A stretch of 64,000 nt of DNA from Aquibium sp. A9E412 (GTDB lineage: Bacteria > Pseudomonadota > Alphaproteobacteria > Rhizobiales > Rhizobiaceae), in contig NZ_JAOAOP010000001.1 of assembly GCF_030398335.1 (NCBI RefSeq), positions 186,001-250,000 of the forward strand. The letters run 5' to 3'. Position 1 is the stretch's first letter. Each line of letters starts with the position of its first letter. The translations under genes were made by a program, and so were the position numbers. Below are positions 3,930 through 34,603 of this stretch, piece by piece. Under the pieces are notes generated by a model that made no database searches, was not told where the DNA came from, and saw only the letters and a list, made by a program, of their open reading frames with translations.

Positions 3930-5981
3930 ATGGACGACAACAACAACGACCTCTTCTCCGGGATCGACGCGCCGCGCGCGCGGCCGGCCGAACCTTCGTC
4001 GGCACCGCCTGCGCCGCGCCGCAGCGAGCCGCCGCGCCCGGCCGTGCGCGATGCCGAGGGCTACAGCGCGGCCGACATCGAGGTGCTGGAGGGGCTGGAG
4101 CCGGTGCGCCGGCGGCCGGGCATGTATATCGGCGGCACCGACGAGAAGGCGCTGCACCACCTGTTCGCCGAGGTGATCGACAACGCGATGGACGAGGCGG
4201 TGGCCGGCCACGCCAGCTTCATCGAGGTCGAGCTCGACGCCGAGGGCTATCTGTCGGTGACCGACAACGGCCGCGGCATTCCGGTCGACCCGCACCCCAA
4301 GTTCAAGGACAAGTCGGCGCTCGAGGTCATCATGACCACGCTGCACGCCGGCGGCAAGTTCGATTCCAAGGTCTACGAGACCTCCGGCGGCCTGCACGGC
4401 GTCGGCGTGTCGGTGGTCAACGCGCTGTCGGAAAGCCTCGAGGTGGAGGTGGCGCGCGGCCGCAAGCTCTACCGCCAGCGCTTCGCGCGCGGCGCGCCGG
4501 CCGGGCCGCTGGAAAGCCTCGGCGAGGTGCACAACCGGCGCGGCACGCGCGTGCGCTTCCGGCCCGACCCGCAGATCTTCGGCGGCAGGGCCGAGTTCGA
4601 GCCGGCGCGGCTCTACCGCATGACGCGCTCCAAGGCCTATCTGTTCGGCGGCGTCGAGATCCGCTGGGTCTGCGCCGGCGAGCGGATCGCGGCCAAGGAC
4701 GACACGCCGGAAAAGGCGACCTTCCACTTTCCCGGCGGCCTCAAGGACTATCTCGCCGCCTCGCTGGAGGGCGAGTTCCAGGTCACCCGCGAGGTGTTCG
4801 CCGGCAAGAGCGACAAGCGCGGCGGCCACGGCACCGTCGAGTGGGCGATCACCTGGTACGGCGGCGACGGCTTCCTCAACTCCTACTGCAACACGATCCC
4901 CACGCCGGAAGGCGGCACGCACGAGACCGGCCTGCGCACCGCCCTGCTGCGCGGGCTGAAGTCCTATGCCGAGCTGACCGGCAACAAGCGTGGCGCCGTC
5001 CTCACCAGCGAGGACGTGATGGTGTCGGCCGCCGGCATGCTGTCGGTGTTCATCCGCGAGCCGGAGTTCGTCGGCCAGACCAAGGACAAGCTGGCCACCG
5101 CCGAGGCCGCCCGGGTGGTCGACAGCGCCGTGCGTGACCCCTTCGACCACTGGCTCGCCGACAACCCGCAGGAGGCCTCCAAGCTGCTCGACTGGGTGAT
5201 CGCGCGGGCCGACGAGCGGCTGCGTCGGCGCCAGGAGCGCGAGGTCAGCCGCAAGTCGGCGGTGCGCAAGCTGCGCCTGCCGGGCAAGCTGGCCGACTGC
5301 ACGCTGGGCGCCGCGGCCGGGGCGGAGATCTTCATCGTCGAGGGCGATTCGGCCGGCGGCTCGGCCAAGCAGGCGCGCGACCGGGCGACCCAGGCGGTGC
5401 TGCCGCTGCGCGGCAAGATCCTCAACGTGGCGAGCGCCGGGCACGGCAAGCTGGCCGCCAACCAGCTCATCGCCGACCTGGTGCAGGCGCTCGGCTGCGG
5501 CACGCGCGCGAAGTACCGCGAGGACGACCTGCGCTACGAGCGCGTCATCATCATGACGGACGCCGACGTCGACGGCGCGCACATCGCCTCGCTGCTCATC
5601 ACCTTCTTCTACCAGGAGATGCCCGAGCTCATCACCGGCGGCCACCTCTACATGGCGGTGCCGCCGCTCTACCGCCTCAGCCAGGGCGGCAAGACGCTCT
5701 ACGCGCGCGACGAGGCGCACAAGGACGAGCTGCTGCGCACCGAGCTGACCGGCCGCGGCAAGGTCGAGATCGGCCGCTTCAAGGGGCTCGGCGAGATGAT
5801 GCCGCAGCAGCTCAAGGAAACGACGATGGACCCGGCCCGCCGCACGCTGCTGCGCGTCGAGGTGCGCGAGGACAAGGCGGCGACGCGCTCGGCGGTCGAC
5901 GCGCTGATGGGCACCAAGCCCGAGGCGCGCTTCCGCTTCATCCAGGAGCACGCCGCCTTCGTCGACGAGCTCGACATCTAG
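3930..5981 (+). CDS. parE: DNA topoisomerase IV subunit B
   Basis: A 683-residue type IIA topoisomerase ATPase subunit that works with ParC to decatenate daughter chromosomes. The GHKL ATPase domain shows EVIDNAMDEA with catalytic Glu81, then DNGRGIP and GGLHGVGVSVVNALS. The Toprim domain has EGDSAGGSAKQARDR (Glu471) and DADVDGAH (Asp544, 546, 548). ParE is preferred over GyrB because the protein lacks the long Toprim insertion of most GyrB proteins and has a normal ParE length. The start chosen (MDDNNNDLF) gives a disordered Pro/Arg-rich extension of about 40 residues before the ATPase domain. The frame is open further upstream but without family similarity. Confidence 0.95.
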   Translation: MDDNNNDLFSGIDAPRARPAEPSSAPPAPRRSEPPRPAVRDAEGYSAADIEVLEGLEPVRRRPGMYIGGTDEKALHHLFAEVIDNAMDEAVAGHASFIEVELDAEGYLSVTDNGRGIPVDPHPKFKDKSALEVIMTTLHAGGKFDSKVYETSGGLHGVGVSVVNALSESLEVEVARGRKLYRQRFARGAPAGPLESLGEVHNRRGTRVRFRPDPQIFGGRAEFEPARLYRMTRSKAYLFGGVEIRWVCAGERIAAKDDTPEKATFHFPGGLKDYLAASLEGEFQVTREVFAGKSDKRGGHGTVEWAITWYGGDGFLNSYCNTIPTPEGGTHETGLRTALLRGLKSYAELTGNKRGAVLTSEDVMVSAAGMLSVFIREPEFVGQTKDKLATAEAARVVDSAVRDPFDHWLADNPQEASKLLDWVIARADERLRRRQEREVSRKSAVRKLRLPGKLADCTLGAAAGAEIFIVEGDSAGGSAKQARDRATQAVLPLRGKILNVASAGHGKLAANQLIADLVQALGCGTRAKYREDDLRYERVIIMTDADVDGAHIASLLITFFYQEMPELITGGHLYMAVPPLYRLSQGGKTLYARDEAHKDELLRTELTGRGKVEIGRFKGLGEMMPQQLKETTMDPARRTLLRVEVREDKAATRSAVDALMGTKPEARFRFIQEHAAFVDELDI

Positions 5982-15122: not shown

Positions 15123-15360
15123 CGGCTGGCCTTCCGCTCCGCGCTGCAACGCGCCGTGTCGTGGGCGTCCCTTCCCAAGGGGGGCTCGGACCTTATATAG
15201 TGGTCGGACCCTGACGGCGGCAAGGCGACTTGCCATCGTGTCAAGGTTCCGCGCACGCCGCATTCGGGCAGGATGGAGCGCAAGTTCACCGATCCCGCAG
15301 CGAGGCCGTGGTCCGTTCAACTCGTTCCTTCGCGAAAGGAACTACGGAGAGAGACCGAGC

Positions 15361-33250: not shown

Positions 33251-33335
33251 TGGTGCGGGTGGAGGGACTTGAACCCCCACGGCTTGCGCCACAGGAACCT
33301 AAATCCTGCGTGTCTACCAGTTCCACCACACCCGC
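33251..33335 (-). tRNA. tRNA-Leu (anticodon TAG)
   Basis: An 85-nt class II tRNA with an encoded CCA. Acceptor GCGGGTG pairs with CACCCGC, the D-arm is TGGTGGAACTGGTAGACACG, the anticodon stem CAGGA/TCCTG encloses TTTAGGT (anticodon TAG), and a long variable arm GGCGCAAGCC-type follows before the T-arm GGGTTCAAGTCC. It reads CUA and, by wobble, other CUN codons. Situated 90 bp upstream of tig on the same strand. Confidence 0.97.
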
Positions 33336-33581
33336 TTCGAAAGCCGCAGGCTCCCGAAAGCGCGGGTTCTATATCACCCGGACATGGTGGTTCAAAGGAA
33401 AATTGCCAGCAAATTCGGGCTTTTTTCCGCCAAAGACGGGGAAATCGTGCCGCTTTTCCGCGTCGCCCGCCGACGCCGGCCCGAGGGCGCGCCGGCGGGC
33501 CGGCAGCGGCCCCTCATACTGCTCTGCACAACGGTCTTTGGTGCGATGCACAAAGCGCAATGCTGCCATGCAACATTAGCG
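33336..33581. other. Non-coding gap upstream of the DUF1127 gene
   Basis: This stretch between tRNA-Leu (minus) and the DUF1127 promoter has no convincing gene. An open frame continues upstream in phase with the DUF1127 protein, but its translation is Arg/Pro-rich and lacks similarity. The tRNA-Leu promoter should lie near 33345-33380, where AT-rich sequence occurs. At 33538-33577 there is repeated TGCA/GCAA sequence (GATGCACAAAGCGCAATGCT, then GCCATGCAACATT) that could be a regulator site. Confidence 0.4.
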
Positions 33582-33610
33582 CTTCAATCCCGCCCGGCGT
33601 CCGCCTATCT
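33582..33610 (+). promoter_or_regulatory. Possible RpoH-like promoter of the DUF1127/hairpin transcript
   Basis: CTTCAA (33582-33587) and CCTATCT (33604-33610) are separated by 16 bases, close to the CTTGAA/CCTATNT-type promoters used by RpoH sigma factors in alphaproteobacteria, with one mismatch in the -35 hexamer. It would give a leader of about 45 bases. Proposed because CcsR-type loci are RpoH-controlled in Rhodobacter; the match alone is weak. Confidence 0.35.
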
Positions 33611-33662
33611 ACCAATCGCAACAGAGATTTGCTCAACCAGTCCAAACGAAAAGACCAAAGAG

Positions 33663-33803
33663 ATGAACATCGTCCGCAACTACCGCAACTGGCGCCGCTA
33701 CCGGCAGACTGTCAGCGAGCTGAGCCGCCTGTCGAACCGCGAGCTCAACGATCTGGGCATCAACCGCGGCGACATCCCGTTCGTGGCGCGCAAGTCGCTC
33801 TGA
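33663..33803 (+). CDS. DUF1127 small arginine-rich protein (CcaF1-like)
   Basis: A 46-residue protein, MNIVRNYRNWRRYRQTVSEL followed by SRLSNRELNDLGINRGDIPFVARKSL, which is a complete DUF1127 domain including the LxDLGIxRxDI core. An AAAGAG ribosome-binding site precedes the ATG. DUF1127 proteins such as CcaF1 of Rhodobacter sphaeroides bind RNA and influence maturation of the CcsR small RNAs encoded in the same transcript. Here too the gene is immediately followed by hairpins with CCTCCTCC loops, so the same role is inferred. Too short for ordinary gene callers with a 60-residue limit. Confidence 0.9.
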   Translation: MNIVRNYRNWRRYRQTVSELSRLSNRELNDLGINRGDIPFVARKSL

Positions 33804-33815
33804 TTTCGGTTTCGT

Positions 33816-33927
33816 CGAGGCCTACCTCCTCCCAGGCCTCGGCGGATAAGACCGGCCTTTTCCTCCTCCCTAAGGCCGGTCACCAAAACGGCACCCGTCG
33901 GTCTCCTCCCCCGGCGGGTGCTGTTTT
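33816..33927 (+). ncRNA. CcsR/cuckoo-RNA-like array of three CCUCCUCC-loop hairpins
   Basis: Twelve bases after the DUF1127 stop begin three stem-loops. SL1 (33816-33841) has an 8-bp perfect stem CGAGGCCT/AGGCCTCG with loop ACCTCCTCCC. SL2 (33850-33881) has a 10-bp perfect stem GACCGGCCTT/AAGGCCGGTC with loop TTCCTCCTCCCT. SL3 (33891-33921) has an 11-bp stem with one G-U pair and loop TCTCCTCCC. SL3 extends through AAAAC/GTTTT into a 17-bp terminator-like stem. The stems differ while the anti-Shine-Dalgarno loop motif is kept, which is strong evidence for a functional RNA of the CcsR family. Only SL1 and SL2 carry the full CCTCCTCCC. Confidence 0.85.
33885..33927. terminator. Terminator formed by the third hairpin
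   Basis: The stem AAAACGGCACCCGTCGG pairs with CCGGCGGGTGCTGTTTT over 17 bp with two G-U pairs, followed on the plus strand by CGTTTCG. The symmetrical A- and T-runs allow termination of both the DUF1127 transcript and the convergent lipoprotein gene. Confidence 0.65.
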
Positions 33928-33997
33928 CGTTTCGTGCGGCCGGATTGTCGTGCGGCAACGCCGCGCCCTCTGTCCCGCATCTCAGCGCGCGCCCCTG

Positions 33998-34603
33998 TCA
34001 GCGTGCGCCCATGACTCCGCGGGCCTGCCATTCTTCGAGCGGCATGATGTCGGGGGATCCGCCGGCCGGCTCGTACCAACTGTCGACCGCCCAGCGCCGC
34101 CCGGATGGGTCGCGGATCACCGCCGTGGCATGCGGATAGCGCCCATCGACGAAGAAGCCGCGCGACACGTTCGCCTCCACCTCGTGGTGCCTGAGCAGAC
34201 CGCGCGCGGCGAGATAGCGCAGCAGCGAGCGGGTGTTGGTGGATTCGTCGATGCAGTCCATCTGGCCCTTCTGGCCCGACTGGCCGAGCACCGACTTCGG
34301 CGCGTCGCGCACGCCGATGGTCGCCACCGTCATCTCCTCGAAATGCCGCACGGCGGCGGCGATCGCCCGGCGCTCGGCCTGCGGCCCGGCGCGGCCCGGC
34401 GCCATGATGGCGGCGAAGCGCTCGGCGGCCTGCGGCCCGACGGCGATGCGCGTCTTGTACGTGCAGTTGAAGCCGCTGCAGGCATAGATGCGGCCCGCAT
34501 CGGCGCGCGTGATGGCGCCGGTGTAGTTCGACGACACCGAGGTGCAGCCCGCCGACACGGCCGCGGCGAGCAGCGCCGCGGCGATTCCCCCGCCTTTTGT
34601 CAT
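33998..34603 (-). CDS. Lipoprotein with a transglutaminase-like Cys-His-Asp arrangement
   Basis: A 201-residue predicted lipoprotein (signal peptide residues 1-18, lipobox VSAGC). The mature domain contains Cys117 in [17 protein letters not shown], His158 in [10 protein letters not shown] and Asp174 in WAVDSW. Their order, spacing and surroundings resemble the catalytic triad of transglutaminase-like cysteine proteases. I recognise it as a conserved rhizobial hypothetical, not a characterised enzyme. ATG 34603 starts the signal peptide. It is divergent from trmFO with 110 bp between and convergent with the DUF1127/hairpin transcript. Confidence 0.75.

Follow-up and report, generated by a model that had tools for sequence, protein, structure and literature searches.

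The window analysed here, that is, the whole stretch of 64,000 nt, carries on its plus strand a small DUF1127 gene followed by an RNA of the ar14 family and, ahead of both, a predicted regulator site and promoter (Table 1). Only 2 nt separate the stop codon of the gene from the start of the RNA, on the same strand. On one side the unit is flanked by tig (trigger factor) and a tRNA (33254-33335), both on the minus strand, and on the other by a minus-strand ORF of 216 aa without a Pfam match, and then by trmFO. No G-rich Shine-Dalgarno-like stretch is found in the sequence ahead of the DUF1127 gene. A first-pass annotation of this DNA had proposed a 46-codon DUF1127 gene coupled to a hairpin RNA in a single compact unit; the Pfam match bears out the gene, while the coupling and the compact unit are supported by the 2-nt spacing and by its recurrence in relatives. 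As for the two other above-cut-off DUF1127 genes of this genome (C111 and C76), no ar14 match was found within 2.5 kb of them at E 0.01.

Table 1. Features of the DUF1127-ar14 locus (window positions)
Feature	Position	Strand	Evidence
LysR-type regulator site (LsrB/VtlR-like box), predicted	33539-33576; core 33547-33572 TGCACAAAGCGCAATGCTGCCATGCA	+	Position-weight matrix, 26-bp pattern
Predicted sigma-70-type promoter: weak -35 CTTCAA 33582-33587, N17, -10 CTATCT 33605-33610	33582-33610	+	Box-to--10 spacing
DUF1127 small-protein gene, 46 codons	33663-33803	+	Pfam PF06568, E 4.5e-18
ar14 (cuckoo) small RNA	33806-33926	+	RF02344, 95.6 bits, full length (positions 1-123)
Hairpin 1, 13 pairs, loop ACCTCCTCCC 33824-33833	33811-33846	+	Minimum-energy fold; 9/9 consensus pairs doubly changed
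Hairpin 2, 10 pairs, loop TTCCTCCTCCCT 33860-33871	33850-33881	+	Minimum-energy fold; 8/8 consensus pairs doubly changed
Hairpin 3, 17 pairs, loop TCTCCTCCC 33902-33910	33885-33927	+	Minimum-energy fold; 10/12 consensus pairs doubly changed

When the whole window was searched, the Rfam family ar14 (RF02344; NfeR1/'cuckoo' sRNAs) matched the RNA well above its cut-off of 58.8 bits (E 2.9e-16), while the CcsR1 model (RF02791) reached 46.4 bits, under its cut-off of 65.3. The RNA had earlier been described as CcsR/cuckoo-like: its cuckoo type stands, with ar14/NfeR1 as the family, and its assignment to CcsR1 does not. A model of our own, R1, built from the 26 RNAs of the covariation alignment below, gives the RNA 120 bits, the window being among those sequences. 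The minimum-energy fold of 33804-33934 (-71.8 kcal/mol vs. a shuffled mean of -40.8; z = -8.64; none of 200 shuffles equally stable) reproduced exactly the three hairpins and three loops drawn in the first-pass annotation. In the third loop, the first C of CCUCCUCCC is missing. On the plus strand of the 64-kb window, CTCCTCCC occurs in these three loops only. The raw motif CCTCCTCCC is found at 45 places in the genome vs. 84 for its reversed control and, since the control is the commoner of the two, the motif alone is no evidence. Hairpin 3 likely doubles as the terminator, judging from its position and the TTTTCGTTT that follows; these two traits agree with the terminator proposed earlier, although a simple terminator scan, which allowed loops of at most 8 nt (that of hairpin 3 has 9), did not flag it.

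Covariation was analysed in a sequence-only alignment of 26 of the 27 ar14 RNAs starting at most 15 nt after a DUF1127 stop codon, the window included; the copy in locus L037, which overlaps a second copy, was omitted. Changes on both sides were found in 27 of the 29 stem pairs, and 87.3% of the cells pair. The covariation score was 0.513 vs. 0.239 in shuffles, none of 500 being as high, and fell to 0.144 or less when the partner was slid by 1-3 columns, a comparison that favours the consensus structure, which was predicted from the same alignment, and in which a few rows share one genome. Nine columns are invariant, and eight of them belong to loops 1 and 2. Loop 3 varies more: several rows have its motif shortened or shifted, and the row of genome G001 has none. 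The test named beforehand was that the stems should covary around fixed loops: the stems do so, the first two loops stay almost constant, and loop 3 shows some drift. The stems thus change in compensated steps while loops 1 and 2 hardly change.

The distribution of the RNA was then examined in the window's genome and 60 relatives. An ar14 match is present at E 0.001 in 45 of these 61 genomes and above the cut-off in 37. A total of 113 matches were examined, namely 111 of the 112 scoring over 48.0 bits, plus two weak ones from the window's own genome. The DUF1127 stop codon lies 0-12 nt 5' of the RNA, on the same strand, in 27 of them, 49-92 nt in nine and 134-414 nt in 18, the last being often second or later tandem copies. 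In the remaining 59, a few of which have short upstream DNA, no DUF1127 gene was found within 600 nt upstream; therefore, the ar14 RNA needs no protein gene. At the genome level, 29 of the 38 genomes having an examined match possess at least one DUF1127-ar14 pair within 100 nt. In the family as a whole, R1 matched 141 of 151 genomes (E 1e-8), the ten negative ones consisting of seven genomes of 1.1-2.0 Mb and three of 3.6-4.7 Mb.

In relatives, the DUF1127 gene may be single or paired and the ar14 RNA single or in several tandem copies; the window has one of each. Six tandem ar14-type copies stand behind the DUF1127 gene in Aurantimonas (L164, 1934-2740) and four in Jiella (L192, 2664-3184), while many Mesorhizobium loci (among L159-L237) have two tandem DUF1127 genes behind one box, and then ar14 copies; a short hairpin, TTCGGACC...GGTCCGAA, without the aSD motif often lies between these two genes. 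Two candidates for a second ar14 copy in the window's genome, at C97:23407 (40 bits) and C86:25480 (26.9 bits), were rejected, since neither reaches the cut-off or has a box. By eye, the former (C97:23407-23508; L153 3408-3509) shows the motif in its first and third hairpins but not in its second; a tRNA is nearby.

The promoters of DUF1127-ar14 units share a 38-bp dyad-like element, of which the window copy is TGGTGCGATGCACAAAGCGCAATGCTGCCATGCAACAT. A position-weight matrix, trained on 28 of 34 such promoters with that of the window included, scored at least 28 bits in 22 of the 34, vs. 13.0 bits for the best of 6800 shuffled sequences. The 26-bp box pattern has the window site as its sole exact match in its own genome. 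Across the 61 genomes, it was found 17 times exactly and 38 times with at most one mismatch, the reversed-pattern control giving none; 16 of the 17 exact matches lie upstream of a same-strand ar14 match, the exception being in genome G050. In the 450 nt upstream of the RNA (one of the 113 matches having too little DNA), a box above the null maximum of 16.5 bits was found for 34 of the 54 ar14 matches that have a DUF1127 gene there, a proportion that is not independent of the matrix, which this group trained, and for 15 of the 58 without one, a group that did not train it. About half of the 20 DUF1127-linked matches below the null maximum are second or later tandem copies. Since the box occurs in ar14 loci with and without DUF1127, one promoter module serves both.

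The position of the box differs between the two types of loci. Twenty of the 34 DUF1127-linked boxes are placed 251-305 nt upstream of the RNA, one (G029:C1326) being located between gene and RNA, while nine of the 15 solo-ar14 boxes lie at -64 to -68. Variants of this arrangement were also seen in six plasmid examples, chosen from the 303 plasmid records in which DUF1127 was matched and to be read as examples, not as rates. On plasmids of Sinorhizobium, Agrobacterium and Rhizobium (L265, L266 and L269), the gene is followed by a terminator-like hairpin (by eye), a separate box (17.2-20.2 bits) and then the RNA, with an extra motif hairpin ahead of the RNA (by eye). A Brucellaceae plasmid (Pseudochrobactrum, L264) carries a DUF1127 gene at 801-947 and an R1 match at 961-1081 (56.5 bits), 13 nt apart, with a weak box (17.1 bits) ahead of both. 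Plasmid L268 has a DUF1127 gene with a weaker box-like site (14.6 bits) and no RNA match, and plasmid L267 has neither box nor RNA match.

Such loci lend some weight to the alternative that the ar14 RNA of the window arises from a promoter of its own, inside or just behind the DUF1127 gene, which would then be a mere neighbour: ar14 genes that lack DUF1127 and carry a box of their own some 65 nt upstream exist, and a box does stand between gene and RNA in G029:C1326 and in the three plasmid loci just described. In the window, however, those 2 nt are all that lies between stop codon and RNA, and the best box is 259 nt upstream of the RNA, ahead of the gene, with a -10 hexamer at the usual distance. 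Also, a plain sigma-70 scan of 33350-34000 returned no promoter, though the weak -35 promoter predicted here was likewise missed. A separate promoter for the RNA is considered unlikely.

Concerning the protein that might bind the box, a LysR protein of 298 aa is encoded in the window's genome; its full length aligns with PDB 9hh1 (474.7 bits), and the next-best chain scores 121.9. This entry is A. tumefaciens LsrB, described as a redox-responsive activator (PMC11975290). By this similarity, an LsrB ortholog is present in the window's genome. Its gene directly follows trxB, the position reported as consistent for lsrB in Rhizobiales (PMC11975290). Behind it come a two-mismatch box and an ar15/AbcR RNA (50.3 bits vs. 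a cut-off of 40), in whose promoter no CTATNT was found at +58 from the box. The best suhB/AbcR-type match of the genome (C88:39326-39406; 66 bits, cut-off 41) lies away from lsrB, and its contig has no box within three mismatches.

The published descriptions of LsrB and VtlR sites resemble the window box. LsrB is reported to bind TGCA-N6-GCAT at -72 to -60 of NfeR1 and to activate it (PMC10746234). VtlR binds and activates atu1667, with GCAT-N3-TG-N3-T as the proposed box (PMC7486931), and Brucella VtlR activates three DUF1127 genes and abcR2, with CAATGCAGCCATGCA as the reported box (PMC12595884). Since atu1667 is a stated ortholog of two VtlR-activated Brucella genes (PMC7486931), it can be taken, together with PMC12595884, as a DUF1127 gene; whether it acts as protein or RNA is left open in PMC7486931. 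The window promoter contains the published-consensus LsrB/VtlR box one base off each published form: it fits the LsrB motif save for the final A (GCAA vs. the rhizobial GCAT), and its CAATGCTGCCATGCA has one mismatch to CAATGCAGCCATGCA. The site before the unit is therefore likely to be one for LsrB/VtlR, of the redox-sensing LysR type, rather than a heat-shock promoter.

The occurrence of the box was also analysed without regard to gene or RNA, by scanning a species-genome collection (84,980 species by its description) with TGCANNANNNGCAWTGCWGCCATGCA. Whereas about 0.5 match is expected by chance (our own estimate, assuming equal bases), 106 stretches were found, 80 of which were listed as loci. 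Going by the titles, Mesorhizobium and other Hyphomicrobiales account for nearly all of these 80, one being titled only 'Bacterium' and two belonging to Pseudorhodobacter and Pseudodonghicola (L204 and L228), both Rhodobacterales. Neither Brucella nor Agrobacterium is among these 80 of the 106 stretches. Some of the listed loci appear to overlap the sampled genomes (L193 with G035, L213 with G007, L192 with G020 and L209 with G031).

A DUF1127 gene was found within 900 nt downstream of the box in 74 of the 80 listed loci. By motif count, the loop motifs stand directly behind the DUF1127 gene or genes in 70 (one gene in 18, two genes in 52), and straight after the box, without a DUF1127 gene, in three (L187, L198 and L236), while five loci end too early for the count. 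R1 matched 73 of the 75 loci tested, though two of these matches are weak or truncated, that in L208 scoring 32.0 bits and that in L235, which lies at a contig end, 37.6 bits. The two misses are L204 and L228, where the box (5040-5065 and 2699-2724, respectively) has neither DUF1127 nor ar14 nearby. Of the 80 stretches, none longer than 8 kb, 46 contain Tig and 58 contain TrmFO, so that much of the scan represents one locus inherited in place.

In the window, the predicted -10 hexamer begins 28 bp after the 38-bp element, which would put the transcription start near 33617. In 71 of the 80 listed loci and in 14 of 22 sampled genomes, the closest hexamer to CTATAT is found 58 bp from the box start (+58), CTATCT (31) and CTATTT (29) being the commonest forms among all 80 listed loci. 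RpoH promoters have the consensus CTTGAA and CCATNT. The first-pass annotation had placed the unit under RpoH, as a CcsR-like locus responding to heat and singlet-oxygen stress, and the CcsR1 model does match the RNA. Its score is nevertheless below the cut-off, none of the 80 homologous promoters from the listed box loci has CTTG[AC] in its -35 stretch, CTTGAA is absent from the -35 hexamers of the 22 sampled genomes, and a conserved LysR box stands where the RpoH promoter should be; in this sequence test the claim of RpoH control finds no support, and that reading appears quite improbable. Less probable still is that the hairpins form only the 3' UTR of the DUF1127 mRNA, terminating and protecting it, with the protein as sole product. 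Hairpin 3 is in terminator position, but against this reading the stems covary, all three carry almost the same unpaired aSD loop, and 59 of the 113 ar14 matches have no DUF1127 gene in the 600 nt ahead of them.

The reading that we prefer, with a probability of about three in four, is that the locus is a CIN1-type dual-function unit of Hyphomicrobiales, an LsrB/VtlR-activated mRNA-plus-sRNA of about 310 nt whose binding and expression are predicted. The RNA family, structure and covariation, the coupling with DUF1127, the conserved geometry of box and promoter, and the presence of the LsrB ortholog were computed here and form its basis. As in the published relatives, LsrB/VtlR would bind the box and recruit sigma-70 RNA polymerase to the weak -35 promoter. 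A single transcript would then run from about 33617 to about 33930, its 5' part serving as mRNA for the 46-residue DUF1127 protein and its 3' part, from 2 nt past the stop codon, being the ar14 cuckoo sRNA, with hairpin 3 presumably terminating transcription. The three CCUCCUCCC-type loops may occupy the Shine-Dalgarno sequences of other mRNAs by base-pairing and so prevent their translation, as is the case for NfeR1, a stable trans-acting sRNA that silences mRNAs in this way (PMC10746234). The ar14 RNA would probably be freed by RNase E, perhaps with the help of the DUF1127 protein, since RNase E release helped by the protein is described for CcaF1/CcsR (PMC10253847). Whether DUF1127 proteins bind RNA is a matter of dispute: CcaF1 does so, while those of Agrobacterium act on or bind PhoR (PMC12501420).

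Three known systems can be compared with this dual-function unit. NfeR1 of Sinorhizobium meliloti, the founder of ar14, likewise has three aSD-loop hairpins, a length of about 121-123 nt and an LsrB-type box upstream, but it is a trans-sRNA with its own start site, whereas here the DUF1127 ORF lies between promoter and RNA (PMC10746234). CIN1 of Rhodobacter sphaeroides (ccaF1-CcsR1-4) also joins a DUF1127 gene and downstream CcsR-type RNAs into a single unit, though with four CcsR RNAs behind its gene instead of one three-hairpin RNA (PMC10253847). It further differs in having an RpoHI/HII promoter in place of the LysR box, and the window RNA does not reach the cut-off of the CcsR1 model. Finally, the VtlR/LsrB-activated DUF1127 genes (atu1667 and the three of Brucella) are small genes behind a box of similar consensus (PMC7486931, PMC12595884), and these systems share the LsrB ortholog with trxB and an adjoining AbcR RNA (PMC7486931, PMC12595884, PMC11975290); in contrast to the unit here, no cuckoo RNA is described on those mRNAs in the accounts consulted, the comparison being by description only.

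The lack of a Shine-Dalgarno sequence ahead of the window's gene was examined among the DUF1127 genes of the sampled genomes. An SD-like 4-mer precedes 13 of 28 genes classed as in-unit vs. 24 of 25 others (Fisher p 7e-5, kinship ignored), and the SD pairing energies also differ between the two classes (Mann-Whitney p 0.004, kinship ignored). A cruder in-unit classing gave a smaller contrast. Seven of the 'others' (L032, L036, L055 twice, L057, L083 and L097), six of which have an SD-like 4-mer, are in fact units at 49-92 nt spacing; when these are moved, the counts become 19 of 35 in-unit vs. 18 of 18 others, again with kinship ignored. The missing SD of in-unit genes could reflect immunity to the unit's own aSD RNA, which is put forward as a lead only. 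More broadly, and tentatively, the LsrB/VtlR target among the DUF1127 genes of Mesorhizobium-type Hyphomicrobiales may be a dual-function RNA, in which a redox switch would yield the protein together with at least one SD-blocking cuckoo RNA, the leader having lost its SD and so escaping the unit's own RNA. If this is true, protein-only complementation of such DUF1127 genes misses half of their output.

The locus is known as ar14 by its RNA and as CIN1 by its arrangement (PMC10253847); what is probably new is the likely regulator and the link between box and unit across a large lineage. VtlR/LsrB-controlled DUF1127 genes and LsrB-controlled NfeR1-type sRNAs, separate in the literature found, appear in this lineage as a single unit with one conserved promoter ahead of it. 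Among the listings and passages searched, no paper joining the DUF1127 and NfeR1/LsrB lines was found, nor one linking NfeR1 with DUF1127; the founding cuckoo and CcaF1 papers lay outside the search and may discuss the regulator of the Hyphomicrobiales CIN1. With such a unit, the question raised in PMC7486931, whether a VtlR-activated transcript acts as protein or RNA, becomes directly testable, and the prediction is that LsrB-mediated signals (redox, nitrogen, salt), not heat, would induce it.

Two other RNA motifs were recorded in the same genome: a THF-II riboswitch at 15313-15351 on the plus strand of the window (49.9 bits vs. a cut-off of 41) and a sul1 RNA motif of 74.9 bits on the minus strand of contig C97 (L153, 6381-6436).
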